Shown in pieces: positions 28,250 to 53,700 of a stretch of DNA of 64,000 bases (position 1 is its first letter; every line of letters starts with the position of its first letter). The position numbers and the translations under genes were made by a program. Source of the DNA: a virus; IMG/VR virus record IMGVR_UViG_3300004369_000005, positions 28,121 through 92,120 of that record; one strand, given 5' to 3'. The notes below the pieces were generated by a model. It worked only from the letters and a program-made list of their open reading frames with translations, searched no databases and was not told where the DNA came from.

Positions 28250-28326
28250 TTCTTTACTGGTGCTGTTAGTTCAAGAGTGAGTGTTAGTAGTAGTATGAAT
28301 GAGAAGATAAAGAGTGTACTAATCAT
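28246..28326 (-). CDS. 26-residue hydrophobic micropeptide
   Basis: MISTLFIFSFILLLTLTLEL followed by TAPVKK. One transmembrane span with a basic C-terminus. The ATG overlaps the end of the upstream oxygenase gene and the TGA overlaps the next ATG, so the reading frame fits the overlapping gene chain although it is very short. Confidence 0.4.
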   Translation of the reverse strand: MISTLFIFSFILLLTLTLELTAPVKK

Positions 28327-28879
28327 GATTGTAATTTTCCTCTTTAAATTGACACCATCCTGTTGCAATAAACTTAGTTGATGTTGTTGGTGTTACACCT
28401 TTATGTGGGTGAGTCCAGTATGCAGGCCATATTGCCATCATACCTTGTCTTGCACGTAGTTTCATGTTTTGGTATGGAAACTCTGTCCCTTCATTACAAG
28501 TATTAAGATAGATCATCCATGCAATATGTCTACGTGGATGATAGGATGAGTATTCACAATGAGGGGAGAAATAACCTTCACCTTCATTATAACGTTGAAT
28601 ATTATAATAGGGGCAGATTTCCCATGGTTCAATCTGTTCTAGGAAGTGATACTTATTAACATAGTTTTGTATCCCTTTCACAACAGCAGGATAGATGAAT
28701 GAGTTGTACTGAATGAATTCAGTTTGGAAGAAGTTAGCATGAAGATCAGTAGAGAGTTTATACTCTGGGTTGACTTCATCATGATTAATTGCACCAGGAA
28801 CTGTACGCTTATCCTTTTGGAATAGCGCACAGCAGGTAGCAGCATCATAGTCTTCCATTACCTTGTAGAGTTCAATCAT
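28319..28879 (-). CDS. 2-oxoglutarate/Fe(II)-dependent oxygenase, prolyl-hydroxylase-like
   Basis: 186 residues. The core reads YNIQRYNEGEGYFSPHCEYS, then RRHIAWMIYLNTCNEGTEFP, then IWPAYWTHPHKGVTPTTS and KFIATGW. This follows the prolyl-4-hydroxylase-type order 'Y..G..f..H.D/E...R..t.l.YLN..feGGeT.F......p..G....f......H.g.pv..G.K.i...W'. Likely Fe ligands are His107, Glu109 (in place of Asp) and His157; Lys169 would bind 2-oxoglutarate. Substrate unknown. It lies among tiny early-type genes, unlike the other two oxygenases in the window. Confidence 0.8.
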   Translation of the reverse strand: MIELYKVMEDYDAATCCALFQKDKRTVPGAINHDEVNPEYKLSTDLHANFFQTEFIQYNSFIYPAVVKGIQNYVNKYHFLEQIEPWEICPYYNIQRYNEGEGYFSPHCEYSSYHPRRHIAWMIYLNTCNEGTEFPYQNMKLRARQGMMAIWPAYWTHPHKGVTPTTSTKFIATGWCQFKEENYNHD

Positions 28880-31355: not shown

Positions 31356-31493
31356 TTATTTGCCAGTATACTGATAGCACTTGTAGTTTGGATGATAACG
31401 ATCAATATATTTCTGTGCGTGTTCGATACAGGTAAACCAACACTTTTTCTTCTCAGTAAGATCCTCAAGGAAAATGGGGAAAGTTGTCAGGTG
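31356..31493 (-). pseudogene. detached C-terminal reading frame (about 45 aa) after the AbrB-like gene
   Basis: The frame encoding KKKCWFTCIEHAQKYIDRYH and PNYKCYQYTGK looks like real protein (paired Cys, His, aromatic pattern). It has no ATG, GTG or TTG start of its own: upstream in this frame lies only a Ser/Thr/Lys-rich sequence that is the +1 shadow of the AbrB-like gene. It joins that gene if the ribosome shifts +1 near 31465-31475, or if a base has been lost there. It may be a C-terminal domain of the upstream gene or a separate gene that lost its start. Confidence 0.45.
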
Positions 31494-31848
31494 GGGAAAC
31501 TGTTCGATCTTTCTGCTGTTCGTTACCTTGATCTCTTGTTTGGAGGAACTTTTCCGCGTTGTTGATGTCTTGCTGGATTTCTTCTGCGGACTGGTCGATG
31601 ATATACTCTTTGATTGCGTCTTCTTTGACGCTGTACCAGTCGTGAGTTTGCTCGTGTTCTTCTTCAGTGCTGCTGCTGTCTTCGACTCTACGGATGATGA
31701 TCGTGTTGTTGTCTTGGATGTCCCACTCGATGATGTCATCTTCTTCCCAACCGAGTTCTTGCATGAGTTCTTCTGGGAATTCGACGAAGAGGTCTTCTGA
31801 GTCTTCATACTGTTGCACTTCAAGGGTAAACTTATTTGATGTATCCAT
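31465..31848 (-). CDS. AbrB/MazE-like protein (SpoVT-AbrB swapped-hairpin type)
   Basis: 127 residues from MDTSNKFTLEV. The N-terminal part holds the pattern 'L.V......dLFVEFPEELMQELGW then EEDDIIEWDIQDNNTIIIRR', the small beta swapped-hairpin DNA-binding arrangement of AbrB/MazE antitoxin-like proteins (typical 'i.iP..l...lgl..Gd.v.......g.i.i'). The C-terminal half is acidic and helical. Probably a DNA-binding regulator; no toxin partner is adjacent. The reading frame stops at CCT TGA, where a second plausible frame takes over. Start at ATG 31848 preferred over GTG. Confidence 0.65.
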   Translation of the reverse strand: MDTSNKFTLEVQQYEDSEDLFVEFPEELMQELGWEEDDIIEWDIQDNNTIIIRRVEDSSSTEEEHEQTHDWYSVKEDAIKEYIIDQSAEEIQQDINNAEKFLQTRDQGNEQQKDRTVSPPDNFPHFP

Positions 31849-32512
31849 TTTCACGTAGCCACTCTCCTGTCAATGGTGTTGGTTTGTAAGTAGTCCACAT
31901 TGTACCAGCAGCACATGCTTCTAGTGCTTTTTGTGTCATTCCCTCTGTTCTACCAGCCCAGGATGCCTCTGCCTCCCAAGGCACAGCAGATGCAGGATAT
32001 GTACGCTCTGCCAGTGTACGCCATAGAATAGGCACAGATTCTTCAGGCATAATGATAGCAATCATGCTATTGTCGATGCTACCTGCCATACAGTCTTGTG
32101 CTGCGTGCCATCCTTCATGACGCATTACTGCCATCAGTGTGCCAGGATGATCCATGTACTTCTTATTGAGATAGAAGTTGTTTGACACTGTGTGGTAGAC
32201 TCCACGATGTCCGACTGGGAAATAACGCTCATCAGCAAGATATACTTTCACACCAATGTCATTCAGTGTGGAGAGCATGTTGTTGAACTCTTGTGCTACT
32301 ATCGTAAACTCTTCCATGTTATCATAATTGGAAGAGATGTCTAGCATAGAATAGACTTCCTTAACATCTTTGGTACACTCACGGAGCAACATACACCCCA
32401 TTGCGTCCATGCTGTAGAATCCTTTGGTAATCTTGTCCTCATTAGCAAGGGCAACATGTGCTGTGCCTAGACTAACAGCAGTGAGGAGCGCAAGGAGTGT
32501 TTGTTTCATCAT
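31832..32512 (-). CDS. exported protein with HExxH zinc-protease-like motif
   Basis: 226 residues. A cleavable signal peptide is visible (MMKQTLLALLTAVSLGTAHV, then ALA-NED around residue 24). An HEGWH motif (132-136, in MRHEGWHAAQDC) fits the zincin HExxH signature; WEAEAS at about 179-184 could supply a third, glutamate ligand. Several Cys (40, 46, 141, 195) may form disulphides in the periplasm. It may act on cell-wall or envelope protein during lysis or infection, but that is inference; a similar hypothetical protein is familiar from cyanophages. ATG at 32512 or 32509. Confidence 0.7.
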   Translation of the reverse strand: MMKQTLLALLTAVSLGTAHVALANEDKITKGFYSMDAMGCMLLRECTKDVKEVYSMLDISSNYDNMEEFTIVAQEFNNMLSTLNDIGVKVYLADERYFPVGHRGVYHTVSNNFYLNKKYMDHPGTLMAVMRHEGWHAAQDCMAGSIDNSMIAIIMPEESVPILWRTLAERTYPASAVPWEAEASWAGRTEGMTQKALEACAAGTMWTTYKPTPLTGEWLRENGYIK

Positions 32513-36961: not shown

Positions 36962-37264
36962 TTAGGATCTATTAGGTAATTTATCATATTGCCATTTTTC
37001 AGCAAGTTCATCTGCAAAGTCAACCTCACGATTACCCATCATCAAAGATTTTAGCACAGTTGCCTTCTCCATGCCTTTTCTGTGATAATCTATCACATCT
37101 TGGATGCAAGATAGCATCTCTTCATATGCTCGTCTGCTTGATACTTTCTCATCTTGGAGGTAATCATCGATGCAATCTTGCATACGATCTTTGCGCTGCG
37201 TTTCATACTCTTTCTGCCAATAGTTATCGGAAACTTGAATGTCAGGGCGTCCTTCAATAGTCAT
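36962..37264 (-). CDS. 100-residue hypothetical protein
   Basis: MTIEGRPDIQVSDNYWQKEY..., an Arg/Asp-rich helical protein ending in AEKWQYDKLPNRS. TAATG overlap with the upstream gene. Function unknown. Confidence 0.6.
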   Translation of the reverse strand: MTIEGRPDIQVSDNYWQKEYETQRKDRMQDCIDDYLQDEKVSSRRAYEEMLSCIQDVIDYHRKGMEKATVLKSLMMGNREVDFADELAEKWQYDKLPNRS

Positions 37265-37452
37265 TAGTTGAATTCCTCGTTGCGACGTTTGTCAAGATAA
37301 GCAATAATTTCACCACGCCATTCCATCAACTCATGGTAACATTTCTGCTCGTGAGCGTCCTGACGTAATTGATGATCTGGTTTCAATACACTCTCATAAA
37401 AAATATGAAATGCATCGCGACGTTTTTCGTGCTTTGGTAGATCCCAGTTCAT
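37264..37452 (-). CDS. 62-residue basic helical protein
   Basis: MNWDLPKHEKRRDAFHIFYE, then RQDAHEQKCYHELMEWRGEI. First gene of the small-gene region. Function unknown. Confidence 0.6.
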   Translation of the reverse strand: MNWDLPKHEKRRDAFHIFYESVLKPDHQLRQDAHEQKCYHELMEWRGEIIAYLDKRRNEEFN

Positions 37453-37520: not shown

Positions 37521-38648
37521 TTAACTATTGACCCCATCATGCCATTGCTTGAACGACATGCGAGGCCAGATTCCATACTCAACTCCTGCGAGATTCTTAG
37601 AGTTTAACACTTCATATGGGTGAGCGACTGCCTGGGTGTGATACTTTACAAACTGGTAGTCTGGGTTGAATGGCAGTGTCTTAGCATAGTTCCAAAATGG
37701 TGTCTCAAATTGAGACCCATACTGATAATGCCACAAGATGAATGTTTCAAGTTGTTTCATTATAGCGCGGATGCTAGCATCTTGTGCTTCCTTTGACTTT
37801 CCATTAACAATGTGATCCCATGCATGTCCTGCAACATTACGATAAAACGTTGTAGATGTTGCCTCCAATGGTTCTAAGAATGCAAAGCGATTACCATTGA
37901 GAATAGTCCTCTCACCAGAGAACATAGACTTACAAATGTAATTGCGAAACCGCAATACATCATCAATATCACTCTCTATGATATTGAATCTATCAAGAAA
38001 ATCTTCTCTTGCTTCCTCATCAGTTGTGATAGTATTATTATACAGATAACCATATGAAATACTATCATCATTAGGGATGACAAACGTCCACCCATGTGGT
38101 GTGGCAACACATTTTGTGTCACGCAGATCAGGATCAGCACCATCAGCAAATGCAATGATAGCAGAGTTATGTGGATTGATTAATGTATCATAATCATCCC
38201 AGTTGTTGTAGTGTTTACCACGACAATCAAAAATGTAATCAGCATCTATTTCTGATTCAGGATCTTCAATTGCTTTCTCTACCACATTCACATACTGTGA
38301 GTTTCTTACTTTTTCAGATAATTTGTAAGTTTGGAAATGACATGCAATACTATCCATGAAGAACTTGTGATAGATATGCTTTTGCTTCTTTCCCCAGTTT
38401 TCATAAAGAATACCAAGTTTCAAAGTAGCACCAATGTCATTATTCCACCAGTCCATGTTAAGTGACGATGAAATCAATTGTAATACATCTGGTGTGGTGC
38501 TCTGCCCTACCTTTTCAATAGGACAGTTAGGATCATGATACATATCAATCTCAAATTGATTAGTACCATACTTGCCACCATAATAACCAAAGTTCAATGC
38601 TGTAATAGATCCAGCATTACCACTACCAACAATAGCAATCTTCTTCAT
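37521..38648 (-). CDS. flavin-dependent tryptophan-halogenase-like protein
   Basis: 375 residues. FAD-binding GSGNAG is at 8-13. The halogenase 'G.sT.P' motif appears as GQSTTP (48-53), with the catalytic-type Lys in GATLKLGILYENW (Lys77, equivalent to PrnA Lys79). YIFDCRGKHYN and RFAFLEPLEATST (254-266) match the later family motifs. The signature GWxWxIP is GWTFVIP (186-192): the second Trp is Phe. Bacterial PrnA/RebH enzymes have about 530 residues, so this is a short version; lacking partner genes, it may be a monooxygenase or a halogenase of unknown substrate. Such genes occur in T4-like cyanophages. It overlaps the PKHD oxygenase by four bases, so the two are coupled. Confidence 0.82.
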   Translation of the reverse strand: MKKIAIVGSGNAGSITALNFGYYGGKYGTNQFEIDMYHDPNCPIEKVGQSTTPDVLQLISSSLNMDWWNNDIGATLKLGILYENWGKKQKHIYHKFFMDSIACHFQTYKLSEKVRNSQYVNVVEKAIEDPESEIDADYIFDCRGKHYNNWDDYDTLINPHNSAIIAFADGADPDLRDTKCVATPHGWTFVIPNDDSISYGYLYNNTITTDEEAREDFLDRFNIIESDIDDVLRFRNYICKSMFSGERTILNGNRFAFLEPLEATSTTFYRNVAGHAWDHIVNGKSKEAQDASIRAIMKQLETFILWHYQYGSQFETPFWNYAKTLPFNPDYQFVKYHTQAVAHPYEVLNSKNLAGVEYGIWPRMSFKQWHDGVNS

Positions 38649-39319
38649 TTATATGCTGGTCCCCACGCCCACGCTACAAGTGTACGTCTCTTACCAGATA
38701 GAACATGATCTACCTTGTGATTCATCATCGATGGGAATACAAGAATATCTCCCTTGTTTAATCTAACAGTTTGGTAATCAATCTCCCCTTTACGTAGACA
38801 AGCAAACTGAAAATCTCCTCCTTCGAAGTCTTCACCCTGTTGATCTAACATAATAGTCATCGACAGTTTTCTGCACGTTCTAGGATCTCCTGGTGCCATT
38901 AGATGATCGTTGTGCCAATCATAGTGACCCCCAAAAGTTTCTTCATATACATCAGAAGTAAGATTCTCTGGTTCTTCATACTCACTGTATTGAACTTCTT
39001 CAACACCAGACAGTGCGAATTGCCAATCTGGATCAGACTCATTAGCACTAGCAAACTGCAACTCAACTAATGACAAAAAGAAAGGATCACCCAACCATGA
39101 GATCTTTGACTTTCTGATCTTTTCGTCTATTGATTTGTCATCATTAACTGCTCCTGGTTGCATTACAAGATCCATACCCTTCAGGCGTTCTTCGATCAAT
39201 TCGATAGCATCATCAGGTAATGTAGCAACTTTATATTTTTCAAACTGTTGAAACTGAAAGTCAATTATGTTTTCTCCTTCAGCATCATATAGAACGCTAC
39301 CTTTAGAAGCAACTTCCAT
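38645..39319 (-). CDS. PKHD-type 2-oxoglutarate/Fe(II) hydroxylase
   Basis: 224 residues with a clear C-terminal 2OG domain: GGHYDWHNDHL with His136 and Asp138, RKLSMTIMLDQQGEDFEGGD, GDILVFPSMMNHKVDHV with His201, and GKRRTLVAWAWGP with Arg211. This matches the PKHD/PiuC-type 'H.D...R.lS..i.L....eGGdf.......GdlvvFPs...H.v.pV..G.R.....W'. The N-terminal 80 residues are a separate alpha/beta region. It is the partner, by overlap, of the halogenase-like flavoprotein, so the two may act on one substrate. Confidence 0.88.
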   Translation of the reverse strand: MEVASKGSVLYDAEGENIIDFQFQQFEKYKVATLPDDAIELIEERLKGMDLVMQPGAVNDDKSIDEKIRKSKISWLGDPFFLSLVELQFASANESDPDWQFALSGVEEVQYSEYEEPENLTSDVYEETFGGHYDWHNDHLMAPGDPRTCRKLSMTIMLDQQGEDFEGGDFQFACLRKGEIDYQTVRLNKGDILVFPSMMNHKVDHVLSGKRRTLVAWAWGPAYK

Positions 39320-39561
39320 TATTCATCTCCTCCATCATCATCTACTCGATCAACTGATGCAATATCACATACAGGAACTTCATGTTCCCCTCCAATAAGA
39401 TACCATGGCATGATCTGACCGTGGTATTCTGGGTGTGCTTGGTAATCTTCAGGATATACACGATCACCAAGATACTTCACTTCAGTATCTGGAATGTTAT
39501 GCTCTCGCAGCATTGCTTGCAACTGCAAGTGAATTAACTCTGGTGCTGATGGTACTTTCAT
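39319..39561 (-). CDS. 80-residue hypothetical protein
   Basis: MKVPSAPELIHLQLQAMLRE, then a beta segment (VKYLGDRVYPEDYQAHPEYH) and an Asp-rich end. One-base overlap with the PKHD gene. Function unknown. Confidence 0.6.
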   Translation of the reverse strand: MKVPSAPELIHLQLQAMLREHNIPDTEVKYLGDRVYPEDYQAHPEYHGQIMPWYLIGGEHEVPVCDIASVDRVDDDGGDE

Positions 39562-39593
39562 TTAGATCACATTTCAACATTCGCAGCATAACA

Positions 39594-39953
39594 TCAATTA
39601 GGTGGTGCTGTCAACCCCGTGGTATTTGCGTTCCACCATGTGAAGTCACCGTTTTCATCCATGACATAACAGCGCCAGTAATAGTCTGGATCAGGACAAT
39701 TTTCTTCTGATGGGAACCATGCTGCTGCTTCTTCTGCTGCTAGATCAGATGATGCTACCTCAATAATATCCCATTGACCTGTTGCTTTCATCATGTCAAG
39801 GACATTATCATCAGTAAACTCTTCATACCAAGCAAAGATATCTGCCTTCTTATCTTCAGGAATTGGAGTCAGTCTGTAAAAATAAATCAACGATGTCTTT
39901 TTAGTTTTACAATAGAACTCCATTAAGTCGGCATAGTTAATCCAATCATTCAT
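39594..39953 (-). CDS. 119-residue hypothetical protein
   Basis: MNDWINYADLMEFYCKTKKT..., then a Trp- and acidic-rich body (AWFPSEENCPDPDYYWRCYV, DENGDFTWWNANTTGL). ATG at 39953 overlaps the assembly-chaperone stop by eight bases; the longer frame starts with TTG. It could be a tail-fibre-associated factor, from position only. Confidence 0.6.
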   Translation of the reverse strand: MNDWINYADLMEFYCKTKKTSLIYFYRLTPIPEDKKADIFAWYEEFTDDNVLDMMKATGQWDIIEVASSDLAAEEAAAWFPSEENCPDPDYYWRCYVMDENGDFTWWNANTTGLTAPPN

Positions 39954-40818
39954 TTGTATCAGCCTCAATCATTTGCAATAGATTTCTCAAATATGCTTCT
40001 GCCTCTTGCTTGCTGGCAGTAGCAATTGGTGTGACTTCATCCCAAACTGCACCAGATTCTTTAAGTGCATCCATAAAAGTATTAATATATACACCTTCAC
40101 TGAGATTTCTAACAATCAAATAAGATGAGAACTTCTCAGTAAATGTAGCAAGATAATGACTTGCTAATGGCACAAATTGATCTGCTGAGTCTAGGTATCC
40201 AATGTTTGGATCTTTCTCCAACCAGATTTTCTTATAGTAATTGGGACTAATTGGAAACTTAACATCACCCGCCTCACCAGTTGGTACAGACACAGGGATG
40301 TCTCTTAGTTTCTGTCTGTATAATCTATACAATGCTTTCTCCTCATCACTAACAGGAGAATCTTCAATGAAAACATAATCTGTTTCAGCAAGAAGGAAAT
40401 TACGTGCAAGTCTAACTGTCAACCAGTTGACTTGTGTAGTCATTGCTCTGATCTTAGCAAACTCATTATCATACTGAATATTTTCTAATGACTCAATTAG
40501 AAAAAACGTTTCTTTTAACTTTTGATAGACCGCTTTGCCTTCAGCAATACGATCTACCTCCAACATAGTAAATTCATAATCTTTCCAGAAGTATTCTCCT
40601 GTCTTATGATCCTTTCTATACTTACGTCTTTGGCACATGTAAGTATCATTAGAATACCAGACAAAGTATACTAACTTGTCTCTATCAGAATCCCATGTAG
40701 GATATAGCATAGGTGCAATTTCATCATTATAATATCCATCGGGGACAACCTTAGTCACATTGTTATATGTGATTGTCCTTGCGACAGCATCTAATTGCAA
40801 AATAGTTTGTTGAGCCAT
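39946..40818 (-). CDS. tail fibre assembly chaperone-like protein
   Basis: 290 residues. Near the middle, RLARNFLLAETDYVFIEDSP, then EKALYRLYRQKLRDIPVSVP matches the phage tail-assembly-chaperone (APC) pattern 'R...L..tDw...........yr.YR..LRdip'. The N-terminal half is aromatic and acidic, and the C-terminal half is helical. It follows the collar genes, where tail-fibre chaperones normally sit, and has its own late promoter. It probably helps fold or attach the adhesins encoded upstream. Confidence 0.7.
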   Translation of the reverse strand: MAQQTILQLDAVARTITYNNVTKVVPDGYYNDEIAPMLYPTWDSDRDKLVYFVWYSNDTYMCQRRKYRKDHKTGEYFWKDYEFTMLEVDRIAEGKAVYQKLKETFFLIESLENIQYDNEFAKIRAMTTQVNWLTVRLARNFLLAETDYVFIEDSPVSDEEKALYRLYRQKLRDIPVSVPTGEAGDVKFPISPNYYKKIWLEKDPNIGYLDSADQFVPLASHYLATFTEKFSSYLIVRNLSEGVYINTFMDALKESGAVWDEVTPIATASKQEAEAYLRNLLQMIEADTNE

Positions 40819-40845: not shown

Positions 40846-40852
40846 TATTTAG
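40846..40852 (-). promoter_or_regulatory. late promoter (CTAAATA) before the chaperone gene
   Basis: CTAAATA overlaps the TAA of the glycine-rich tail gene, 28 bases before the chaperone ATG (GAGGAC immediately before it). The overlap with a stop codon is the same arrangement as at gp8. Confidence 0.6.
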
Positions 40853-43800
40853 AATGCTTTGATAAGATACTTGACAGCATGATATGGTTCAATTACAGGA
40901 ACAGGCCAATCAGGATCTAGTGATGCCTCAGGTAGAATAGGATTAGTTGACTGCAATGTGAATCTTGCATCCAATCCAAGCAATCCAGCAGGATAAATTG
41001 ATCGTGGATCCCCTTTGACAACATATGTCAGTTCATCAGCAGATGTAGGAATTGCACCAGATGCAGCTTTAAATTTCAATTCAGTAACTTCTTGGTATTC
41101 ATAGATGAAATCACAGATACCGTAATGATCTGCGTCAGTGCTACTCTCTGCTAGGTTGGGGTTTCTGTCTTGTGATAGTTTAATTCTCACATTAGGAACT
41201 CTAGCACCCTCAGGTAGATTTACTTCATACCAATACCATTGAGTATCACCACTACCACCATCAATTTCTTGGCTAATATCATTAAAAGGAACGATAACAT
41301 CAATAGCAGTCCATGCACTCAGCGACAAATCAGTATTGTAATATACTTTCAGTTCATCGCCACCATTCTCTGGTTGTTCTCCACCATTAACACCGTTACC
41401 TCTACATGCTTTGACAATAAACTTGGTAACGTTAGTGCAATCCATCTCTGATAGGACAACAAATCTTTCAGTATTGTTTCCTTTAAATTTCACATAATGA
41501 GTATATGCTGCTGGTGTAATTAATGTAGACAAATTAAGTCCATCAACTTCTCCAGCAGCGTTAACAGTTGCTGTTGCATATGCTTTAGTACCTGCACCAT
41601 GTTTAATCCTGACTCTTGGTGCATCACCATATCCAGCACCACCATTTGTCAATGTAATACCATTTACTTTACCATTAGCAAGACTGACAGTTGCTGCAGC
41701 ACCATCACCGCCACCACCACCAGCGACAAATTCTACTTCAGGAACTTGTGTTGTTGGTAACTTAAATCCACCTGCTGTACCAATACCAGTTCCACTAGTA
41801 TATACATCAACATCTTCAGAACCAGCAATGAGTAGAGGATCCTCAATCAAAGTAGTTTCTCCACCAACCCAACCAACAACTTCACCAAAACCAACAGTAA
41901 CAAAACCACCACCACCATCACTAGTTCCACTGACACCAGATCCTTTACTGCCAACTTCAATAGCAATAGAAGTTGCAGATGTAATTTGATCTCTATCAAC
42001 TAGAACTGTTGCAAATCCACCAGCACCACCACCGCCGCCACCACCAGTCCAGTAGCTACGATCTTCTCCCCAAGTCCATGAAATATATCCATCCCCAGTA
42101 TTGCTATCAGTGTGTCCGTTATTAGTAAATACGCTAGTTTTATATGAGGTCATTCCACGACCACCACCATATCCACCACCGTGACCTGCAGCTCCACCGC
42201 CTCCGCCGCCATATCCACCACCAGAGATAGTATAAGATGACGTAGCGATACCACCACCGCCGCCACCGCCACCGCCGCCGTTACATCCAGCGTTACCACC
42301 TCTTCTACCAGCGCCAGCAAATAGGTTTCCAGTTGTTGCTAGAGGAGTGTTAGAAGACCATCCAGGTGTGTTGTTTGGTTGACCTGGGTCACCACAATCA
42401 AGATATCCAGGGTCATATCCACCAGCACCACCGCCTCCACCAGCACCAGCAATAATAGATCCAGCACTATTTTTAATAGCAGAGGCACCACCACCTCCAC
42501 CACCCCACGTTCCGCCACCATTGGGACTACCAGACTGTGCTCCATTTGCTGAATATCCACCAGCACCACCATTAACGTTTACACCTTTAACTCCACATGC
42601 ATAACTTCCAGTGAATCCATTGGTAGGAGAGTTAACTCCAAGAACAAGAACAGATCCAGCGCCACCTTGTGTGCCACAAGGAGAAGAGTTTCCTCCTCTA
42701 GCACCAGCAATGGTAATTTCAATGTATGTAATAGTGTAAGAACTAGTAATATTGATATTTCCAGATCCAGTTTGCGTTCCGCTGCTAAAGTTATAACCAG
42801 TATCACTTACATAATTATTCTTACCATCAGATCCATCGTTAGTTGCAGTTGTTCCTGTATTATCTCCACCTTCTCCACCTGTTTGTGGATCATTTGGTTG
42901 ATCTTTGATATATTTTATACTACCACTTCCAGATCCACCAGCAGTAGATTTATTAGCTAGAACTGATACCAATGTAGAAGCACTACCAGTAATACTTACA
43001 GTTCCACCAGCACCGCCAGCTTGAGTTCCACTTCCAGAATAACCTCTTTCCCCACCACCACATGTAATTACAAGTTCAGATCCAACGCTTACAGAACTAC
43101 CAGTTCCAGAGTTACCATTTGTAGTACCATTAGCACCAGATCCACCACCACCAGCAACGGTCACAATCATTTTTTCCCAAGTTGCTGGAAGTGCTAGATT
43201 AGTAGTCTGTGGTGACGTATACGAATACAATAGATTGTATTCAATCAGTGGTTCTCCACCAATGAATCCTGTTCTACCACCAATCTTGGAATTCTCATCC
43301 ATGGTTTTGAATGTAGTAACAGGAATAGACGTTATCAATTCATATGTTCCTGCAGCAGAAGATCCAGAAGCATAATAATACTCTTGTCCGTCAGCTTCAT
43401 ATTTGATACTACCACTAGTTAAGTTTGCACCAGGAACATAGTCGAAGATATCAAATGTAGCAACTGTATTGTCTGGCAATGGCTGCTTTAATAAGCAGTG
43501 ACTGTGTTCGAAAGAAACTCCACCAACAGGGAAGAACTGAGATAGTGCTCCCGTCGCTGCCTTATATTCAGCAAGGTATCTATCACCACTATATGATGCC
43601 ATAGCTTCAATCACGTTTCCAGGAACAGTGTGATAAGCAAAGTGAGAGTGTTCTGGTACGCCAGGTATACGCTTTTCTTTAAGACTAACTTTAATCTCTT
43701 GCTGTCCCGAAACAGTTGTACTCGTAGTGTCTGTTACGTTTGTATATCCAACCGTAGTCAAACTACCAAGAGAGAACAATCCTTTCTGAACGTCTTTAGT

Positions 43801-44670
43801 AAGTAACCACACACCACCAAGTGAATCATATCCTAACGATTCACTAATTAATCCAATAGTAGGAGTGTTAGCACCATAAACAGGACCATATCCAACAATT
43901 TTTCTTGCCTTTAAATCAGGAACAGCAAATGTACCTAGATTGCCAGCACCCATCAACTGAAAGACATTATCAGGTGTGACATCAGCTAGTGATCCATTAC
44001 TATCAAACAACATAGAAATGCTTAATGTACCAGATGCGATACTAATCTGAGTTCCTTGAGCGTCAGTAAGATAGTAATTTGGTTGAGCTAATGGATTATA
44101 ACCAGATCCTGGGTTGATGATCTTAATATCAATAATAGAAAATGTGCCATCACCATTGTCCTGTGTTACTGGATTAATGGAGATTGGTGTACCACCATCT
44201 AATGGATTTGCTGGATCATAATTTGGTGGATTATCAATGTATAATAGTGTATTATCACCAGTTCCATTATATGTTGGACTAGAAATTAACTGAGCGCCTT
44301 GTCTAGCAATACCACCATATTCATTACCGATTGCTTGGAAAAGCAATGGATAATCTTCAATGTAATATAATCCTCCATCACAATAAAGATATCCTTTATA
44401 CTGATACTCTGGATGAGTATCAATTTTTGCAGCACTCTCATTGTAGATATCTCTATATGGTGCTAGACTACCACCGTCAGGTGAAGTTGCAGCGGGATTT
44501 GGTTGATATTTCAAGTCATAAGAAGATTGATAGTTAGGATCGTTATCCTGAACTTTCAATGTAGTGATAATCGATCCAATCTCTGTGGTATCATAGAACT
44601 TATCAGAGTAATAATTTGCTCTGGGATTTCTATATTCAGGATTTAAGTTGATGGTATTTTGTGCTGGCAT
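40849..44670 (-). CDS. glycine-rich tail collar adhesin (1,273 aa)
   Basis: An N-terminal collar-type domain (YKGYLYCDGGLYYIEDYPLL, then FQAIGNEYGG) is the short-tail-fibre 'G.l.cDG..y....yp.L...ig..yGg' motif. Residues of roughly 480-930 are dominated by Gly-rich repeats with Gly runs (GGGGGGGGGG, GGYGGGGGG), followed by a beta jelly-type C-terminus ending YHAVKYLIKAF. The Gly-rich stretch resembles polyglycine adhesin bundles of phage tips. It is very likely a tail-fibre or receptor-binding component. It ends with the same 'Y-[LI]-I-K' tail as the other collar proteins here. Confidence 0.85.
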   Translation of the reverse strand: MPAQNTINLNPEYRNPRANYYSDKFYDTTEIGSIITTLKVQDNDPNYQSSYDLKYQPNPAATSPDGGSLAPYRDIYNESAAKIDTHPEYQYKGYLYCDGGLYYIEDYPLLFQAIGNEYGGIARQGAQLISSPTYNGTGDNTLLYIDNPPNYDPANPLDGGTPISINPVTQDNGDGTFSIIDIKIINPGSGYNPLAQPNYYLTDAQGTQISIASGTLSISMLFDSNGSLADVTPDNVFQLMGAGNLGTFAVPDLKARKIVGYGPVYGANTPTIGLISESLGYDSLGGVWLLTKDVQKGLFSLGSLTTVGYTNVTDTTSTTVSGQQEIKVSLKEKRIPGVPEHSHFAYHTVPGNVIEAMASYSGDRYLAEYKAATGALSQFFPVGGVSFEHSHCLLKQPLPDNTVATFDIFDYVPGANLTSGSIKYEADGQEYYYASGSSAAGTYELITSIPVTTFKTMDENSKIGGRTGFIGGEPLIEYNLLYSYTSPQTTNLALPATWEKMIVTVAGGGGSGANGTTNGNSGTGSSVSVGSELVITCGGGERGYSGSGTQAGGAGGTVSITGSASTLVSVLANKSTAGGSGSGSIKYIKDQPNDPQTGGEGGDNTGTTATNDGSDGKNNYVSDTGYNFSSGTQTGSGNINITSSYTITYIEITIAGARGGNSSPCGTQGGAGSVLVLGVNSPTNGFTGSYACGVKGVNVNGGAGGYSANGAQSGSPNGGGTWGGGGGGASAIKNSAGSIIAGAGGGGGAGGYDPGYLDCGDPGQPNNTPGWSSNTPLATTGNLFAGAGRRGGNAGCNGGGGGGGGGGIATSSYTISGGGYGGGGGGAAGHGGGYGGGRGMTSYKTSVFTNNGHTDSNTGDGYISWTWGEDRSYWTGGGGGGGAGGFATVLVDRDQITSATSIAIEVGSKGSGVSGTSDGGGGFVTVGFGEVVGWVGGETTLIEDPLLIAGSEDVDVYTSGTGIGTAGGFKLPTTQVPEVEFVAGGGGGDGAAATVSLANGKVNGITLTNGGAGYGDAPRVRIKHGAGTKAYATATVNAAGEVDGLNLSTLITPAAYTHYVKFKGNNTERFVVLSEMDCTNVTKFIVKACRGNGVNGGEQPENGGDELKVYYNTDLSLSAWTAIDVIVPFNDISQEIDGGSGDTQWYWYEVNLPEGARVPNVRIKLSQDRNPNLAESSTDADHYGICDFIYEYQEVTELKFKAASGAIPTSADELTYVVKGDPRSIYPAGLLGLDARFTLQSTNPILPEASLDPDWPVPVIEPYHAVKYLIKAF

Positions 44671-44674
44671 GACT

Positions 44675-46090
44675 TTAAATCTTAATGAGATATTCCATTA
44701 CAATAAATGGCATCGTAATTTGATCTAACGATGCTGCATCATCTACACTCAATCTAAGTGTAGTTTCTAAATTTTCTGGAGATAGTTCCAGTGCATCGGT
44801 AACCAAAGTAAAATTATGAGTACCTGCTTCAAAATTAATTTTATGAAAGTGACTGGTTGATCCCTTATTAAGAGCTGTAGTTTCAGTCAATTCATTAAAC
44901 AGTGAAGCATTGATTGTACTATCAGATACATTAAAGTTACTATTTAATGGAAGAACATCATGCAAATATGAATTCTTCCAGTCTAGTGGAACACCACTAG
45001 TACCTTCTTTATAGTATCCAGTAACATCCTCATTAGAATTAATATCACCACTCTGATCTGGAATACAAGTGCTGCCGCCAGCAACACCACCAAGAGGGTT
45101 TGTACCTGATTGGAATGAAGGTTGAATGCTACCATTCAATCTACATCCTCCCGAGGAAACTGGGAAATTATTCCAGTCTTGATTCAATAGACAATAATAC
45201 TTCCATGTTTCTTCCAACGTGTCACCATCGTTGTAACATGCTCCACTATATGCTGTTGGGTCAAAACTACCAGAGAAAGCACCAATTAGATATTGATATC
45301 CTCTTGCTAACTTATTGGATGCCATTGCAACGCAAGGTGGTTGATTACTACCAGGATAGTTACAACCAGATGCTTTAGTATTATCCATCCACGTCTGAAT
45401 GGGAACTGTACTTGCATTCCAATATGCGACTAGTCCAATAGGAAATGGTGCCAAGTAACCATCTGGATCAGCTGGTTCAACCTCAGTTCCAATAGATTTT
45501 AGTCTAGATCTTCTCCAAGTACCAAAATGCATGTGACCGTGGATACCTTGAGCGTCCACTTCTTCACTATCAGTAATTTTTGAATTGTCTGTTGCAACAG
45601 ACCATCCAGGTTTTCCCTTCATCAAAATTTCCTGTGATGGCACAAGAAATGAACCACTGTATGTTAATAGAATTTCAGTACCTAGTGTTGCTGACGCCTC
45701 AACACCAACACCACTCTTTGAAATTTCATCACCATTTTGAGTAATAACTCTAATACCACGATATACACCAGCATCAGCACCAGGGGTAGGTCGTGGATAC
45801 TTAGATCCAAGATCAGGAACAACGAACTGTTCGTCCGTTAAAAACTGCATTGGATCGCCTTGTGTATCTCTCCTAACAAATTTACCAGTTAATCCTCTAC
45901 CACAAACTGATGCTAAAGCAGGAAAATCAGAGGCATTATAAACTGTGCCATCACAACGAAGATATCCTGAGGGGAGCATTTCTTTGTTGGAAGCGGCATT
46001 GAGATCATTGTTAATCTCCATGGGCCAAATAATTATTTGACCCGTTAGATTACCATATTTTGCTTTTTCTTTTGAATATACAGCAGGCAT
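44675..46090 (-). CDS. tail collar adhesin (471 aa)
   Basis: Starts MPAVYSKEKAKYGNLTGQII, then LPSGYLRCDGTVYNASDFPA-LASVCG and FVVPDLGSKYPRPT, the tail-collar signature (PF07484) of T4 gp12-type short fibres. A His-rich motif (QGIHGHMHFGTW) could bind a metal, as in gp12. C-terminus MEYLIKI. One of three adjacent paralogous adhesins. Confidence 0.87.
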   Translation of the reverse strand: MPAVYSKEKAKYGNLTGQIIIWPMEINNDLNAASNKEMLPSGYLRCDGTVYNASDFPALASVCGRGLTGKFVRRDTQGDPMQFLTDEQFVVPDLGSKYPRPTPGADAGVYRGIRVITQNGDEISKSGVGVEASATLGTEILLTYSGSFLVPSQEILMKGKPGWSVATDNSKITDSEEVDAQGIHGHMHFGTWRRSRLKSIGTEVEPADPDGYLAPFPIGLVAYWNASTVPIQTWMDNTKASGCNYPGSNQPPCVAMASNKLARGYQYLIGAFSGSFDPTAYSGACYNDGDTLEETWKYYCLLNQDWNNFPVSSGGCRLNGSIQPSFQSGTNPLGGVAGGSTCIPDQSGDINSNEDVTGYYKEGTSGVPLDWKNSYLHDVLPLNSNFNVSDSTINASLFNELTETTALNKGSTSHFHKINFEAGTHNFTLVTDALELSPENLETTLRLSVDDAASLDQITMPFIVMEYLIKI

Positions 46091-47724
46091 TAGTAAGCTC
46101 GGATGATGTATACGATCGTGAGGGAGGGTTGATTAGTAGTAACAGTAATATTTAGAGCGTCATTGAGATTATCTGGACTCACAGAACCAATACTCAATTC
46201 ATTTATAGTAAAGGTTTCTTGAGGTTTTAGAGTTGCTTGACTCATCTGAATATCAAATGTTCCATGGTTATGACTTAGGAACAACGTAGAATCTGGTTCA
46301 TTTTCACCAATATTACTCATAGAAGTAGGCCATGATCCTTCTAAGAAAGTAATATCAAATGTACCAGACGTTTCAATAGGTCTACTCAGTTTAACTAGGT
46401 AACTATAGTTAGAATCATCCGTGCCTTCTCTTTCAATCTCAGTAATATATGTGCCTTTGGCGATTGGTTCTCCATCAACCATTTGCCATGGGTGAATCTT
46501 ATCGTATGCGTAGTAAGTAATACCCGCATCCTCATCGACCTTCGTAGTTCTAATATCAGTTCCTGGTGGAAGTGTAAACTCAGTATCTTGTGCGTTACAG
46601 GGAACACTTGCTACAGTGAACCAGAGTGAAGGATCTTCTGGGTTGTCAATTAATCCATTATAAGTAGAACTGGTGTCTTTACCAAAGAAATTTCTTCTTT
46701 CACCAAAAATCATTGGTTTTGGCATTAATCCAGTCCACGCTGGAATAGAGTGAGATTTTTCAGGTACAGTAGGAAATACATCAGTAAAACCTTTTACATC
46801 AACAAAATTATATTCCTGAGATCCTGCTTGTGGACTTTCTCTAGTAGGAGTTCCATCATTCCATTCAGGTGCAGGAACTTTAGACCAATAGTCTTTACCA
46901 TCCGCATTATTAAATTGCCAAAATCTATCAACTGTTGGTAGAGTATGTTCGTATTGTTCGTCGCCATAGAATGCCAAAAGAGTTCTACCTTGCTGCCAAG
47001 ATCTTGCTTCAGCATCACTTGGAAGTAAAGCACACTGGAATTGAGTTGATGCAATAGGACTACAGTTTGGGTGTGCTGCGTTACCACTAATTTGAACCTG
47101 AGTAGAACTAAATGTCATAGGTCCAATAAAACCAGCAGTAGAACTTTCGATTTTATCTGCGTGTCCGTGCGATGGGAAGTGGTTAATACCTAGTTTTCTA
47201 TTTAATGTAGTAACTGATGTTTGGAAATCTCCACCAGTTACTGCCAATTCAGTAAACTTACCAACCAGAGTTTGATTTGCTGGCAGCTGGAAATCAATAT
47301 CACAATTAGCAGACCAGGATGTTTTAATAGAAACCTCTGTTCCCATCTCTGATAAAAGATCACGAAATCTAGTGCCATCTGCATCAATAAAGGTATTCAG
47401 TACATCTCCCTGTCCCATTTGATAGTCGGGATTGGCAAGATAACTTTCATCAAGATCAATTAGAACTCTGGATGTAAGGTTAGGAGTAAAAAATTCACCT
47501 TCAATGTTAGGAAATTCTCCACTCAAACTTCCACCATATGTTTCACCAATCATAGATGCTAGCATTTGAAAATCGCTAGCATCTCTTCTTTTTCCATCAC
47601 AAACAATCCATCCTTTGGGGATATTTTCCAATGTAAATCCATCGTTACCATTGCCAGCCCATGGCATGATCGCGCCAATTTTGGCGGTCTTCATGGTTTT
47701 TAGTGAATTGTAGTATTGTGCCAT
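46090..47724 (-). CDS. tail collar adhesin (544 aa)
   Basis: Contains IGAIMPWAGNGNDGFTLENI, IPKGWIVCDGKRRDASDFQM and LASMIGETYGG followed by FFTPNL, another collar domain. HFPSHGHAD and LSHNHGTF are His motifs like those of gp12-type fibres. I chose ATG 47724; the longer frame uses TTG and overlaps the giant gene's stop. Ends IVYIIRAY. It overlaps the next collar gene by one base. Confidence 0.87.
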   Translation of the reverse strand: MAQYYNSLKTMKTAKIGAIMPWAGNGNDGFTLENIPKGWIVCDGKRRDASDFQMLASMIGETYGGSLSGEFPNIEGEFFTPNLTSRVLIDLDESYLANPDYQMGQGDVLNTFIDADGTRFRDLLSEMGTEVSIKTSWSANCDIDFQLPANQTLVGKFTELAVTGGDFQTSVTTLNRKLGINHFPSHGHADKIESSTAGFIGPMTFSSTQVQISGNAAHPNCSPIASTQFQCALLPSDAEARSWQQGRTLLAFYGDEQYEHTLPTVDRFWQFNNADGKDYWSKVPAPEWNDGTPTRESPQAGSQEYNFVDVKGFTDVFPTVPEKSHSIPAWTGLMPKPMIFGERRNFFGKDTSSTYNGLIDNPEDPSLWFTVASVPCNAQDTEFTLPPGTDIRTTKVDEDAGITYYAYDKIHPWQMVDGEPIAKGTYITEIEREGTDDSNYSYLVKLSRPIETSGTFDITFLEGSWPTSMSNIGENEPDSTLFLSHNHGTFDIQMSQATLKPQETFTINELSIGSVSPDNLNDALNITVTTNQPSLTIVYIIRAY

Positions 47725-47729
47725 TTGTA

Positions 47730-50700
47730 TCAGAGTTCCGTGAGCCACCAACCGCGTAGGTTAGATGGGATAGATCTTTCATCTTCTGCACCAGGAGCAT
47801 CAGTTGGACCGACATAAATCAATCCGAAGGATGCGTTTCTGGTCTGTACGATTAGTTCTCCACTATCCCAAGCAACAGAATTGAATCCGCTACCTTCTTT
47901 AATGGTAGAACCTGTGATGTCACCCTGAACTGCAACTGACAAACCACCAACCTTGAGTGCTCTAATGACTAACTGAGAGTCATAAGATAGGTTTCCACTG
48001 CATTCAATGAATCTAATCATATCACCAGTTTCAGCATAATCTGGTAGATACAGAACCATATTGGTGCCTGCAGGATTATTTAGAATGTAGTTGTTATTAG
48101 GTTGTAATGGGGATCCTTGTGTCTGACCGATACCTGTAGCAGATTGTTCTACGTAAGTATATCTACGACCACCATTTCTAGTGAAGTAACGCTGAATACC
48201 GAAGGTATCGATAGAACCATCTTGATAGATCTTAAAGTCTCTTGGACCTTCAGTTCCACCAGTTCCAGCATTACCAATGTTATCGATATGGAAGATTGGT
48301 GTAGTTGCATCACCAAACGCATCGCCATCATTAGCAATTAATTTGCCTCTGACATAGAGTTGTTCTCCAACATCAACAGATCCCGTGTCACCATATACTT
48401 TAAACTTAAGTTCTTCAGTGCAGTTACCCCATGCTTCACAATTATCTTCGAAGACGTTGATGTCACCATGAATGAAGGCATGACCCTTGAGGAACATACC
48501 ACCCTTCCTAGTCTTGGCGTCTAGAATTGCACCATCAGCGGGGTGATCGTCATCGTTAGCAACGTTGAAGATTAGAGTCTCTCCATCGCAACCATACATT
48601 CTCAATTCACCACTGTATAGTTCTAAAGCATCATGAATAATAGTTGTACCACCACCAAATGTTGCGGTATAGAAATCGCGAGGATGATCTCCAATAAAAT
48701 CAGGATCAAGAACATTAAGTGCTTGCTGAACTGATTGTGTTGCTTTAGATAGTCTTACAGAATATGCAGAATCTTGACCGTCAATACTATCTGGATAGAA
48801 CCATTCAGTAGTTACAGCAGATGTAATAGGATCAGTAGTGCTAATTCTAAAGAAGTGTGGGGAGTCTAGTTTGTTACCAACTATTCTAGAATCTGCTAGT
48901 TTAACCTGAATTAGGGAAGCAAGGTATGATGGGTTAGCAGGTGTTCTATTAGTTGCAGGGATGTCCTCAATTAGTTTGCTGCTTAACTTATACTTGTAGA
49001 TCTTAACAACTGTTGCTCCACCACCAGTGAAGTTAAGTTTACTAGTTCCTTCAAGTCCTCTACCACCATTTGGATAAGAAGAAGCAGGATAATCAGCATT
49101 GTAGATTGTAGGCAGATAACCCTGACCGCCAGAAGTATAAGGATTATCGGTGATAATCATGATCTCACCGCGACCTGATGATACTCCAGCACCTTCATAA
49201 ACTGCGATCATGTCGCCCTTCTGGAAGACGCTGATGTCATTAACAGGAATGTTGACATCATCTACTGTAAATCCTACAGAAGTTGTAGTAATTGGACCAC
49301 CAATGTTAAGGGTGAACTTACTAAATCTGTAACCATAAGCAATACTATTCTCAATAGTATGGTTGACTGGAGTAGAACTCCACCATCCACCATGTGCGAA
49401 TACTGCACCTTGTGTAGTACCAATAACAGTGTCACCATTACAGACATTAACGTCAAATGTGGTGCCATACTTGTTATTGATATAGAGGTGGTTATCAAGT
49501 GATGGATCGGGACTTGGATATGTAAAGTCTCTATCGCAGAGACCATTCAAGTTCAGTGTTCCGTTAACATTGAGTAGTGATGTGCTTGTACCATCACCAA
49601 TGGTTACATCACCAGTAGTAGAATCAACAACGAATACATCATTTGCAGTTCCACCAGAACAGTCAGAAGAAATTCTGAACTTAATTTTCTCTTGACTTAG
49701 AGGACTTTGAATCTGTAGAACTTCACCAACGTCATATGTCGTTGGATCTGGTGCTTGTGGTGTGCTGTCACGACCCAAGATAATATAATCATTGAGTTTT
49801 AGACTGCTACCAATTCTGGAGAGATATACATTAGTGATAGACTGCTGGTCGAATGGAATATCCTGAGTAGTCCAAGTAGCATCAAACTGTACGTTACACT
49901 TGTAAACAGAAGTTCTATCTGGGTGATCGTTTCTTACGCCAGTAAATGTACCAAATGGTTGTCTTTCAACAACAATGTAGTATGGTCTGACATTAATTCT
50001 AGGTGTAGAAACAACCTTAACAAATTCAACATGAGTTGAAATTGATGTCGCAGAACCTGTAACATATGTGATTCCAACAACACCGTAGTTATCAATATTA
50101 GCACCAGTGTTTGATCGCTGGAACAACTGGAACTTAACACCTGCCTGCTGTGCTGCAACAGGAATGTTAACTTCCATCTTAACGAACTGTCTGTTCGTAT
50201 CAGCATCCATAAACTGAACGAACTGTGGTGTTGTTACCAGATCTCTAACACCAGCTGGGACAATATCACCAATAGTAACCCATGTATTGCCATCATCAAG
50301 AGAGTATCTTAGTTGTAGTGCTTCATTTGCCAATGCAGGAGAAACGATATCTGGGAATTCTCCACCATTGCTATCAGTTCCGACGTGAACGTCGAATTCC
50401 ATCTTGGAAATAGCACCAGTAGATAGGAATGATCCATCAACTGCATCAAGTGTTACGTAACGAGCTCCACTGCCTTTGAAGTGGATGTATGTCTGACCTG
50501 TGTTAAATCCGCCACTGGATCCTATACCAGGACCAGAGTTATCAAAGAGAACACCCTGATAATCATTAACAAATGATGCTGTTGGATCTGCTTGGTCGAT
50601 ATCAGCAGTGTCTAGAGCAACACGGGACTCGCCAACACCTTCAGGAGAATCAATCAATAGAATGTCATTCTCACGGAAGTATGACTCACCATCAACTAGT

Positions 50701-53700
50701 GGAGCATTCAATAGTGGTAGGTAATACTGATTACCAGTTAGTTCAGGTAGCTCCTGAGGTTCAACCTGTGGGTTGCCACCAATTTCAGTGATTTCATTCT
50801 GATATTGAATACCACCCCAGTTTGAACTACCAACAGTATCAATCTCGTTATATCCTGCTTCTCCAGTCGTCAAACGTGCTACTGTAATAATATCAACGTT
50901 GTTGTTGAATAGACCGTCACCAAGTTCACCAGATAGGTGCTCCATATTGGAAGAACCAGATCTGTTTCTGAATGCAGAGAATGTGAATGCATCCAGACCA
51001 CCACAGAGAACGAGGTTGGAGTTAACTTCAGCAGTTGCATTGACAACCAAGTTGTTTCTAATAGTGGTTGTACCACCCTGACCTGCCATAGTCAGGTTAG
51101 AAACGTTAGTAGCGAAGTTGAGGATGTTGGTTACAGAGTTACCACCAAAGAAGTCAACTGTACCAGCAGTAGATGTTAGTGTTAGACTATCAGTAAGTCC
51201 TCTTCTGGTGATAGGACCACCATTAACATCAGCACCAACACCAAGGATAATATCACCAGCAACCTTAAATGACTTGGTGTCAATCGTTGTTGTTGATAGA
51301 GTCTCAGAAGGTTGTGCGTATGCACCACCAATGACTACCTTAGAAATATTAGCGTTGTTGTCATCAGGAGTATGACCGATGTAGATGTTACTGTGTAGTG
51401 ACTTATTACCAAGGAAGAAGAACTGATCTCCTTCTACATCATCACCAAGGAAGAATCTAGACTGTACCTTGTTGGCGTTACCAATGTAAATGTCTTGAGA
51501 TGACGTAGTGGTGTTACCAATTGTGATTAGTTCAGCACCATTTGCAAGTGCAAGGGTGTTAGTGTTATCAACGATTGTCGCTGCAGTTACATTGTTAGCA
51601 ATGTTAACTGTACCAACGAATGTAGCATCATCAATCACATTGAAGATACCAGTTGTAATACCAGTTCTGATCTCAGCAGTATCAGTTCCATCTACACCAG
51701 GATGGTTGTAGACTTCAATGTCTCTGTGGAATCTTACATCTTCAGTGAAACGAGCATCACCTTGAACTACCAGTGCTCTGTCTAGTTCTGCATTGGTGAT
51801 GTTAACACCAACCTTACCATAGTTATCTGGTCTGCCATTTTCAGAAGAAGCAGTAGTTAGTGTAGAAACACGGAATACTGCTTGCTTAGCATCAATAAAG
51901 GAGACGATAGTAGAACGCTGTGCGTTGTTGAGGAGATCATCAGAATAACCAACAACAAATGCATCAGATACTTTATCTACAGTACGTGTAGCGAATGAAG
52001 CGTTGTTGATCCAACTATCCTGAGTCGTCTTACGACCAGTGATGAATGTTGTACCAATAACTTCAAGGTTTGCACGAGGATCAGTGTTCTTAGGTTGTAC
52101 CCAAGCAGTATCATATGCCTCATGATCGACTCTGTTAAGAGTGTTAATACCAAGTTTGAAGTCACCCCAGGTATCACTATCAGTTCTCATTACTTCAGAA
52201 CCGATTACACCATATTCCTTCCACTTGTTCTCCGCATAGAACATTCTTCCATTTGGAGATGGAGCAGCATTGAAATTAATGATGTCTGTATCCCAGTCGT
52301 AACTACCAACAGGGATGCTTACCTGACTGTTAACAGGAACAATCTCGATAAAGAGTTGATTACTCTGACCGTTGAATGCATACTCCGCATTGTTGATGAT
52401 CTTCCAGTTTCCGATGAAAGATGCATATCTAACAATGTTCTCAAGCTTAATAGTTGAGGTAGGAGTAATTGGTGGGGTAAAGTCGTCAAGTTTAATTGGG
52501 TTGTTTGCTGGATCGATAAAGGTGATCGTAGCAATGTAGGTGGAACCAGATTGCTCGATTTCAATAGCATCAATGTTAGCATTATCAATTTCAGTGAAGA
52601 TGTTTGCATAGATCCAACCAAGAGAACCAGTCTTATTAACTGCATCTCCCTTGAGAAGCATATCTCCTGGTTCTGGTAGAACACCACCAGAGATAGTAAC
52701 GATAGTTTCACCACCTTGCTGCGTTTCTTGTGGTACACCACCATATACAACATACTGCATGATGTTAATGGAAGTTCCACCATTAGCAATGGTGAGTCCC
52801 TGGTTTGGTGCTACATTACCATTTGAAACTGCACTACCTGCAGGTGCATGAATTAGAGACTTGTAACCAAGTCCTTTACCGCGTCTATTATATTCAAATA
52901 CAGCAGAAGAAACTGTGTTCTGACCGATGCGAATATGTCCGCCTTCACCAATACCATCAATCTGATCGAAGTTGAGGTATTGATCTTGTGGTTGACCGTT
53001 AGCACCAGTTGAATTTACTAGAGAGTAAATTAGTAGTGGAGTTCCTTGCTGAACGAGTTGATTGTCAGGAACGTTGATTTCAACAGGGGAGAGGAATCTG
53101 CTGACTAGCTGACCGTTGTCATCACCAACAACTGTGATGTTCTTATTGAACGTTACAGGTGTATCAAAGGTAGTAACGAGTTGTCCGATTACGTCATCCT
53201 CGTCTCCATCATCGGCAAGAACTGCTCTATCGATGAAGGTTTCTTCACCAGTGATAGCATTGATTCTTCTGTTACCGATGTAGAGGTCACCCTGGGAGTT
53301 AATACCCGTGTAGAAGACGATACCAGCATCTTGCTTCTTCGACTGTGCGTAGAAGTCCTCTTCGGGTTCTAGGACGATCTCCTGACGGGCAGGAAGACCT
53401 GTTGAGTAGTTACCAGGACCGAAACCAAGGTATTCAAACGTGTGGTTACCAGCACGAGCGATAGATGGTCTACGGAGTTCAACATAGTAACGCTGATCTG
53501 AGAGAACTGTGCTATCACCAGCAATAGGAATCAAGCGATCTTCCGAACCTGAAGTTGCATTACCTTCCTGTGCCTGAATTCTGTTATCAATTACATTACC
53601 ATCAAAATCACTAGTAGTATTAGTATACTTGTTACTGATGAATGCTGGTTGATGTAGTAGATCCGTAACGAGTTCTCTAGTTACAGAGTGCTTGGTATCA

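Follow-up and report, generated by a model that had tools for sequence, protein, structure and literature searches.

A compact halogenase-like gene and an oxygenase gene at the end of a tail-fibre cassette

The window analysed here, 64,000 bases long, comprises bases 28121-92120 of a partial virus record of 92,120 bases. Its DNA just downstream of the gene pair described below matches Kyanoviridae, the T4-like cyanophages (e.g. S-H9-1 and S-RSM4), and the source is a marine cyanobacterial virus. Upstream of the pair lie three fibre/virion structural genes, a PHROG 4697 chaperone, a 124-aa ORF and an 80-aa PHROG 2020 gene, and small conserved genes lie downstream. An earlier note, made from the letters, had placed two overlapping ORFs right after tail-fibre genes; both were found where it put them, on the minus strand, with an exact four-base overlap (ATGA at 38648-38645), and the genes upstream are indeed tail-fibre and fibre-assembly genes. 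The features of the locus are:

37264..37452, minus strand: small conserved gene, 62 aa, right border of a variable slot
37521..38648, minus strand: compact flavin-dependent-halogenase-like protein, 375 aa (P0001; PF04820, PHROG 2928, AF2 model, Foldseek)
38645..38648, minus strand: 4-bp ATGA overlap, halogenase start over oxygenase stop
38645..39319, minus strand: 2OG-Fe(II) oxygenase with a prolyl-hydroxylase/PiuC-like fold, 224 aa (P0002; PF13640, PHROG 61, Foldseek)
39319..39561, minus strand: PHROG 2020 protein, 80 aa, conserved left border of the variable slot
39946..40818, minus strand: tail (fibre) assembly chaperone (PHROG 4697 / PF16778)
40849..47751, minus strand: three tail-fibre/virion structural genes (1273, 471 and ~552 aa)

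Two paralogues of the oxygenase are present elsewhere in the window, at 28319-28879 and 21202-21768. The window also holds one ORF of ~5212 aa (47730-63368) that is partly related to cyanophage fibre proteins and unusually large for a fibre or adhesin, and two overlapping minus-strand ORFs in different frames (31356-31823 and 31465-31854), both with counterparts in two related loci (L003 and L004).

The flavoprotein has a halogenase fold and a largely conserved active site

The flavoprotein matched PF04820 (Trp_halogenase) at 112.5 bits (E=3e-32; the Pfam gathering score is 21) and PHROG 2928, 'tryptophan halogenase', at E=6e-61. Its AlphaFold (AF2) model, built on an alignment of 15 relatives, had a mean pLDDT of 79.9 and a pTM of 0.82, and the best 50 PDB matches of this model in Foldseek were all flavin-dependent halogenases (FDHs), enzymes that put chlorine, bromine or iodine on aromatic rings, with E values from 3e-22 to 7e-20. 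PyrH, PrnA, RebH and Thal were among the matches (TMq ~0.73-0.80; E ~1e-21 and TMq ~0.79 for the first three). The fold comparison with PrnA and RebH, together with the mapping of the active site, bears out the suggestion that this is a halogenase-like flavoprotein. For the mapping, residue equivalences were taken from a profile alignment to PrnA and conservation was counted over 109 homologues:

38610..38627, minus strand: GSGNAG, residues 8-13, FAD-binding GxGxxG
38502..38504, minus strand: Q49, flavin-strap position (Glu in PrnA, E49, and PyrH, E46); Gln in 98/109 relatives
38418..38420, minus strand: K77, equivalent to the catalytic Lys79 of PrnA and Thal; 109/109 relatives
38361..38369, minus strand: HKF, residues 94-96, equivalent to the substrate-stacking motif H101-x-F103 of PrnA
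38073..38093, minus strand: GWTFVIP, residues 186-192, a WxWxIP variant that has Phe for the second Trp
37854..37880, minus strand: FLEPLEATS, residues 257-265; E262 equivalent to PrnA E346, A263 in place of a conserved Ser
37542..37577, minus strand: C-terminal YGIWPRMSFKQW, residues 358-369, conserved YxxW(7x)W, tentatively PrnA Y444...W455 (low posterior)

K77, W187, F257 and P260 are invariant in the 109 homologues; 106 of them retain E262 and 100 retain H94. In the profile alignment W187 and F189 fall on the two Trp of the PrnA signature; the usual WxWxIP of FDHs is thus absent from the flavoprotein, which reads WTFVIP. Compared with the tunnel motifs, FLEPLEATS matches FX[DE]PX[EFL], and in Fx.Px.Sx.G the F and P match while S is replaced by A and G by S. 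The form of the signature, the length of 375 residues and the retention of a catalytic-type Lys had all been read correctly from the sequence. The caution that halogenation was not assured was also well placed, as three departures were seen: Phe for the second Trp of WxW, Gln for the strap Glu, and Ala for the catalytic-region Ser. With the second Trp, the strap Glu and the active-site Ser all replaced, the chemistry may have shifted.

PrnA, RebH, PyrH and Thal share with the flavoprotein the fold, GxGxxG, Lys79, Glu346 and H101-x-F103; they differ from it in their length (~500-540 aa) and in having GWxWxIP, the strap Glu, the active-site Ser, the free-tryptophan anchors and the C-terminal part. 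Among the residues that anchor free L-Trp in PrnA (Y443/Y444/E450/W455), the E450 position is M364 here and the Y444 and W455 positions are perhaps kept, W369 being the tentative equivalent of W455 in the alignment. Because the substrate insert is cut to 7 residues and these anchors are incomplete, we do not class the protein as a tryptophan halogenase. Judged from sequence and model, it very probably belongs to the PF04820 family with its core active site intact, and we predict with the same high confidence that it is an active enzyme of the FDH family. True halogenation is a more guarded prediction, which we consider somewhat favoured.

Both genes of the pair are under constraint. For the halogenase gene dN/dS was 0.08-0.09 against its two closest relatives (L001 and L002) and ~0.1 against L003-L035 (overall ~0.08-0.11); for the oxygenase gene it was 0.11-0.15 against L001 and L002, the two relatives that share it. 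These low values indicate that both are maintained genes. A pseudogene or truncated gene was ruled out by the dN/dS of ~0.1 and by more than 100 homologues of similar length, and a frameshift hiding a missing domain by the presence of the same short segment in all compact relatives.

The flavoprotein belongs to a compact clade of phage halogenases

At 375 residues the flavoprotein is ~120-160 residues shorter than its characterised relatives. The segment after HxF is 7 residues long as against 46-69 in long phage halogenases, and ~40-60 C-terminal residues are absent. Phe at position 189 was counted in 106/109 relatives, a figure that is partly circular since one search pattern contained GWxF; the WxF claim therefore rests on an unbiased set, made up of isolates from tblastn and loci from search patterns outside the WxWxIP motif. 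Within this set the compact cyanophage members all have Phe at the second Trp and a short post-HxF segment, a loss of ~40-60 residues, and the long phage halogenases, VirX1 of Syn10 included, all have Trp and a long one. The halogenase of Campylobacter phage CP21 is intermediate, with the Trp kept and a 27-residue segment. In a quick tree, which gave long-branch warnings, one branch separates the long from the compact forms (SH-aLRT 95).

The compact clade is common in marine phages, with at least 465 relatives in one scan. Among bacterial genome contigs a search gave one compact match (L110:5998-7143; PAAV01000009.1, a Chloroflexi MAG); its neighbour in the tree is a viral locus, and the contig is probably a mis-binned viral one. 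The short clade is a variant within an enzyme family that is already known and carries the annotation 'prnA'; it does not amount to a system of a new kind. T4-GC 212, the cyanophage 'prnA' cluster published in 2010 (S-ShM2, S-SSM5, S-SSM7, S-PM2 and others), lumps short genes of 1104-1167 bp with long ones of 1437-1593 bp (PMC3037559); the window protein belongs with the short members. In the literature searched we found no paper that separates the short form from the long or assays a short one.

VirX1 of cyanophage Syn10 (PDB 6QGM) is an FDH that prefers iodide. To our knowledge it was the first viral halogenase to be characterised and is the only characterised viral member, and we know of no natural substrate for it. 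The flavoprotein resembles VirX1 as a phage-borne PF04820 protein with the Lys/Glu core, encoded where a tail-fibre module is followed by 2OG oxygenases. VirX1, however, has 530 aa, keeps GWVWNIP and the strap Glu, has 69 residues after the HxF position where the flavoprotein has 7, and falls in the long clade (SH-aLRT 95). Syn10 carries two halogenases in tandem (L028:7377-8900 and 8890-10482), and S-RIM44 has the same tandem pair; in Syn10, VirX1 is the 'hypothetical protein' CPUG_00131, and it is its neighbour CPUG_00132 that is annotated as tryptophan halogenase.

2OG oxygenases are regular members of cyanophage fibre modules

The oxygenase matched PF13640 (E=1.4e-11) and PHROG 61, and its sequence matches include PiuC and Sbal_3634. 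Its predicted ligands are:

38906..38914, minus strand: HxD Fe ligands H136 and D138
38717..38719, minus strand: distal Fe ligand H201
38687-38689, minus strand: 2OG-binding R211

The model (pLDDT 77, poor over the N-terminal 26 residues) has the DSBH fold, and Foldseek returned a Pseudomonas prolyl-4-hydroxylase (P4H), PiuC and PHD2. With PiuC/YbiX and the Pseudomonas enzyme it has in common the PF13640 fold and the HxD...H and Arg ligands, but identity by structure is 17-19% and the window oxygenase belongs to the phage PHROG 61 subfamily. The name 'PKHD hydroxylase' given to it earlier holds at the level of the superfamily (PF13640) and not at that of the NCBIfam PKHD/Fe2+-dioxygenase equivalog (YbiX/PiuC), whose cut-off of 143 bits it missed with 48.5.

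The pair occupies a slot at the end of the fibre cassette that holds other cargo in relatives. The S-CAM4 cassette runs from a short tail fibre through a 2OG oxygenase, the tail assembly chaperone, a second 2OG oxygenase, an 'endonuclease V' gene and two hypotheticals to PHROG 2020 and a third 2OG oxygenase; L003 has this gene order with the halogenase in last place, and the window has the oxygenase and the halogenase there. The S-CAM4 oxygenase in this slot was rejected as an orthologue of the window oxygenase (E=0.14). By tblastn coordinates, 50 of 51 phage records (e.g. L123:4924-6543) have a 2OG oxygenase whose end lies no more than ~100 bp upstream of the PHROG 4697 chaperone; many of the 51 records are near-duplicates, and together they represent ~14 phage species. 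This pairing makes 2OG oxygenases a standing part of the cyanophage fibre module, and suggests that those next to the chaperone serve fibre modification rather than DNA repair. Published suggestions for cyanophage 2OG oxygenases are DNA repair or effects on 2OG/nitrogen (PMC9146016; PMC3037559).

Several genes in or near fibre cassettes are labelled 'DNA endonuclease V' (PHROG 274; L121:5572-6078, L123:7013-7528, L003:6024-6539). For the S-H9-1 copy there is also a match to PHROG 81, a 2OG-oxygenase family (E 1e-6), and the L003 copy matches an oxygenase HMM; from these matches the endonuclease V label on the fibre-cassette genes may be wrong.

Halogenase genes lie near fibre genes in S-ShM2, S-RIM4, Syn10 (VirX1 and the second, tandem halogenase) and S-RIM44, and the long halogenase of S-SRM01 lies between a fibre and an adhesin tip. 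Compact halogenases away from fibres are found in S-MS29 (between gp33 and the helicase loader), Sf-CH8 (between the major head protein and the tail completion protein) and AG-345-E15 (a few genes after ribonucleotide reductase), and S-PM2 and S-B64 are further exceptions. The link to fibre genes that the earlier note drew at this locus is thus recurrent across phage halogenase loci though not universal.

Oxygenase and halogenase are associated statistically

The four-base overlap had been taken as a sign that the two enzymes carry out two steps on one substrate. The same oxygenase-halogenase pair is present in L001 and L002, whose halogenases are 95-97% identical to that of the window. In L003-L007, L014 and L035 (~69-78% identical), however, the PHROG 2020 gene overlaps the halogenase by 4 bp with no oxygenase between them, and an operon conserved by descent was ruled out for the nearest relatives (L003-L007 and L035; 76-78% identical). 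Overlaps of this size are common in the window (4/43 same-strand neighbours). Among 64 non-redundant loci, 27 have a 4-bp upstream overlap and the partner is an oxygenase in just 8 of them, three of which (L088, L096, L102) are weak HMM matches; other partners are as unrelated as talC (S-ShM2), gp33 (S-MS29) and a DNA methyltransferase (L009). The overlap therefore does not support two successive steps, which leaves a looser link between the halogenase and 2OG oxygenases, statistical in kind. Oxygenases make up 23/126 (18%) of immediate halogenase neighbours, compared with 6/163 (4%) of S-ShM2 control genes (p=5e-5) and 41/480 genes 3-8 places away (p=0.003), both p values being uncorrected for shared ancestry.

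A model in which the oxygenase and the flavoprotein perform successive oxidations of one substrate can draw, besides the overlap itself, on the recurrence of the adjacency, which occurs at 17/64 loci with 9-10 changes on the tree and so arose or was lost repeatedly, and on the resemblance among the adjacent oxygenases of the window, L016, L017 and L020. We nevertheless consider it quite improbable. Besides the closest relatives that lack an adjacent oxygenase and the predominance of other overlap partners, the adjacent oxygenases as a whole come from different subfamilies and may be upstream, downstream or divergent, and the best database match of P0002 adjoins uvsW in S-RIM50, not a halogenase. 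Across 37521-40200 of the window, moreover, the nearest relative is L002 for the upstream genes, L001 for the 3' part of the oxygenase gene and most of the halogenase gene, and L002 again for the halogenase end. Such switching of the nearest relative across the pair is a sign of homologous recombination, and by this comparison the two genes have in part recombined separately.

A possible role in fibre modification

Our tentative explanation of the whole is a working compact halogenase that acts on an aromatic group of the fibres or a fibre ligand, in parallel to the oxygenase. FADH2 would come from a host flavin reductase; none of family PF01613 was found in the 92-kb record, which is partial, and the host could supply one. 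O2 and FADH2 would form the C4a-hydroperoxide, which with seawater-derived halide would yield HOX, and Lys77 would guide HOX towards an aromatic ring, rich in electrons, that His94, Phe96 and possibly Trp369 hold in place. With the post-HxF insert and ~40-60 residues of the C terminus gone, and with no counterpart of PrnA E450 conserved, we would expect an open pocket, better suited to a bulky or polymeric substrate than to free tryptophan. The enzyme would then modify an aromatic group on the virus fibres or a fibre ligand alongside hydroxylation by the oxygenase, and not as an obligatory second step on the oxygenase product.

The fixation of 2OG oxygenases in fibre cassettes makes a fibre or fibre-associated substrate, fibre ligands included, our leading hypothesis for the halogenase, with a probability that we would put somewhat below even. 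We count towards it the oxygenase-chaperone pairing, the position of the slot, the presence of long and compact halogenases in fibre modules and the oxygenase enrichment. The compact halogenases that lie off fibres in S-MS29, Sf-CH8 and AG-345-E15, on the other hand, fit mobile cargo with a diffusible substrate equally well. The flavoprotein could be an auxiliary metabolic enzyme acting on a small aromatic host metabolite (an indole, a phenolic, a pigment precursor or a signal), with the fibre position an insertion hot spot and nothing more. That the slot is a cargo slot, and that the gene recurs in many unrelated places (witness its overlaps with talC, gp33 and the methyltransferase gene), would favour such a role, as would the iodination of many small aromatics by VirX1 in vitro (PMC8407142) and published guesses of host protection or metabolism (PMC2984593; PMC9146016). 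Against it, part of what binds free tryptophan in PrnA is missing here, and halogenases of both lengths recur in fibre modules; we regard a metabolite substrate as somewhat unlikely.

A different question is whether the clade has left halogenation and become a flavin monooxygenase, a hydroxylase or epoxidase working on an aromatic substrate. WxWxIP is thought to hold the substrate off the flavin, so preventing monooxygenation (PMC8407142), and all compact cyanophage members have WxFxIP; the replacement of the strap Glu by Gln and of the Ser by Ala points the same way, as does the best NCBIfam match of the flavoprotein, a sub-threshold one to the flavin monooxygenase QhpG. Active, bona fide FDHs that lack WxWxIP nevertheless exist, Bmp5 for example (PMC8407142), and Glu262 is nearly invariant. 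In Thal any substitution of Lys79 abolishes tryptophan bromination, whereas the Lys79 variant tested still makes the flavin hydroperoxide (PMC7948982): the Lys is essential for halogenation and dispensable for the hydroperoxide. Taken with these results, the strict conservation of Lys77 argues for halogenation chemistry over plain hydroxylation, and we judge a switch to monooxygenation improbable.

Returning to the fibre substrate, the broadest form of the proposal is that marine T4-like phages chemically decorate their own receptor-binding fibres once these are translated, with 2OG oxygenases encoded in the cassette hydroxylating, and compact halogenases halogenating, fibre residues or ligands bound to the fibres. 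We offer it as a speculation with the odds well against it. The oxygenase-chaperone pairing and the occurrence of halogenases in fibre modules bring two puzzles, the substrate of VirX1 and the 2OG oxygenases, into one testable proposal. Independently of substrate, a natural clade ~100-150 residues shorter than other FDHs that keeps the Lys and Glu with a linked WxW-to-WxF change offers a ready test of the roles of the Trp motif and the substrate insert. If fibres are indeed decorated in this way, the decoration would tune adsorption or stability and explain the many 2OG oxygenases of these phages, and no flavin halogenases directed at proteins or polymers would be known that are smaller than those of the compact clade.
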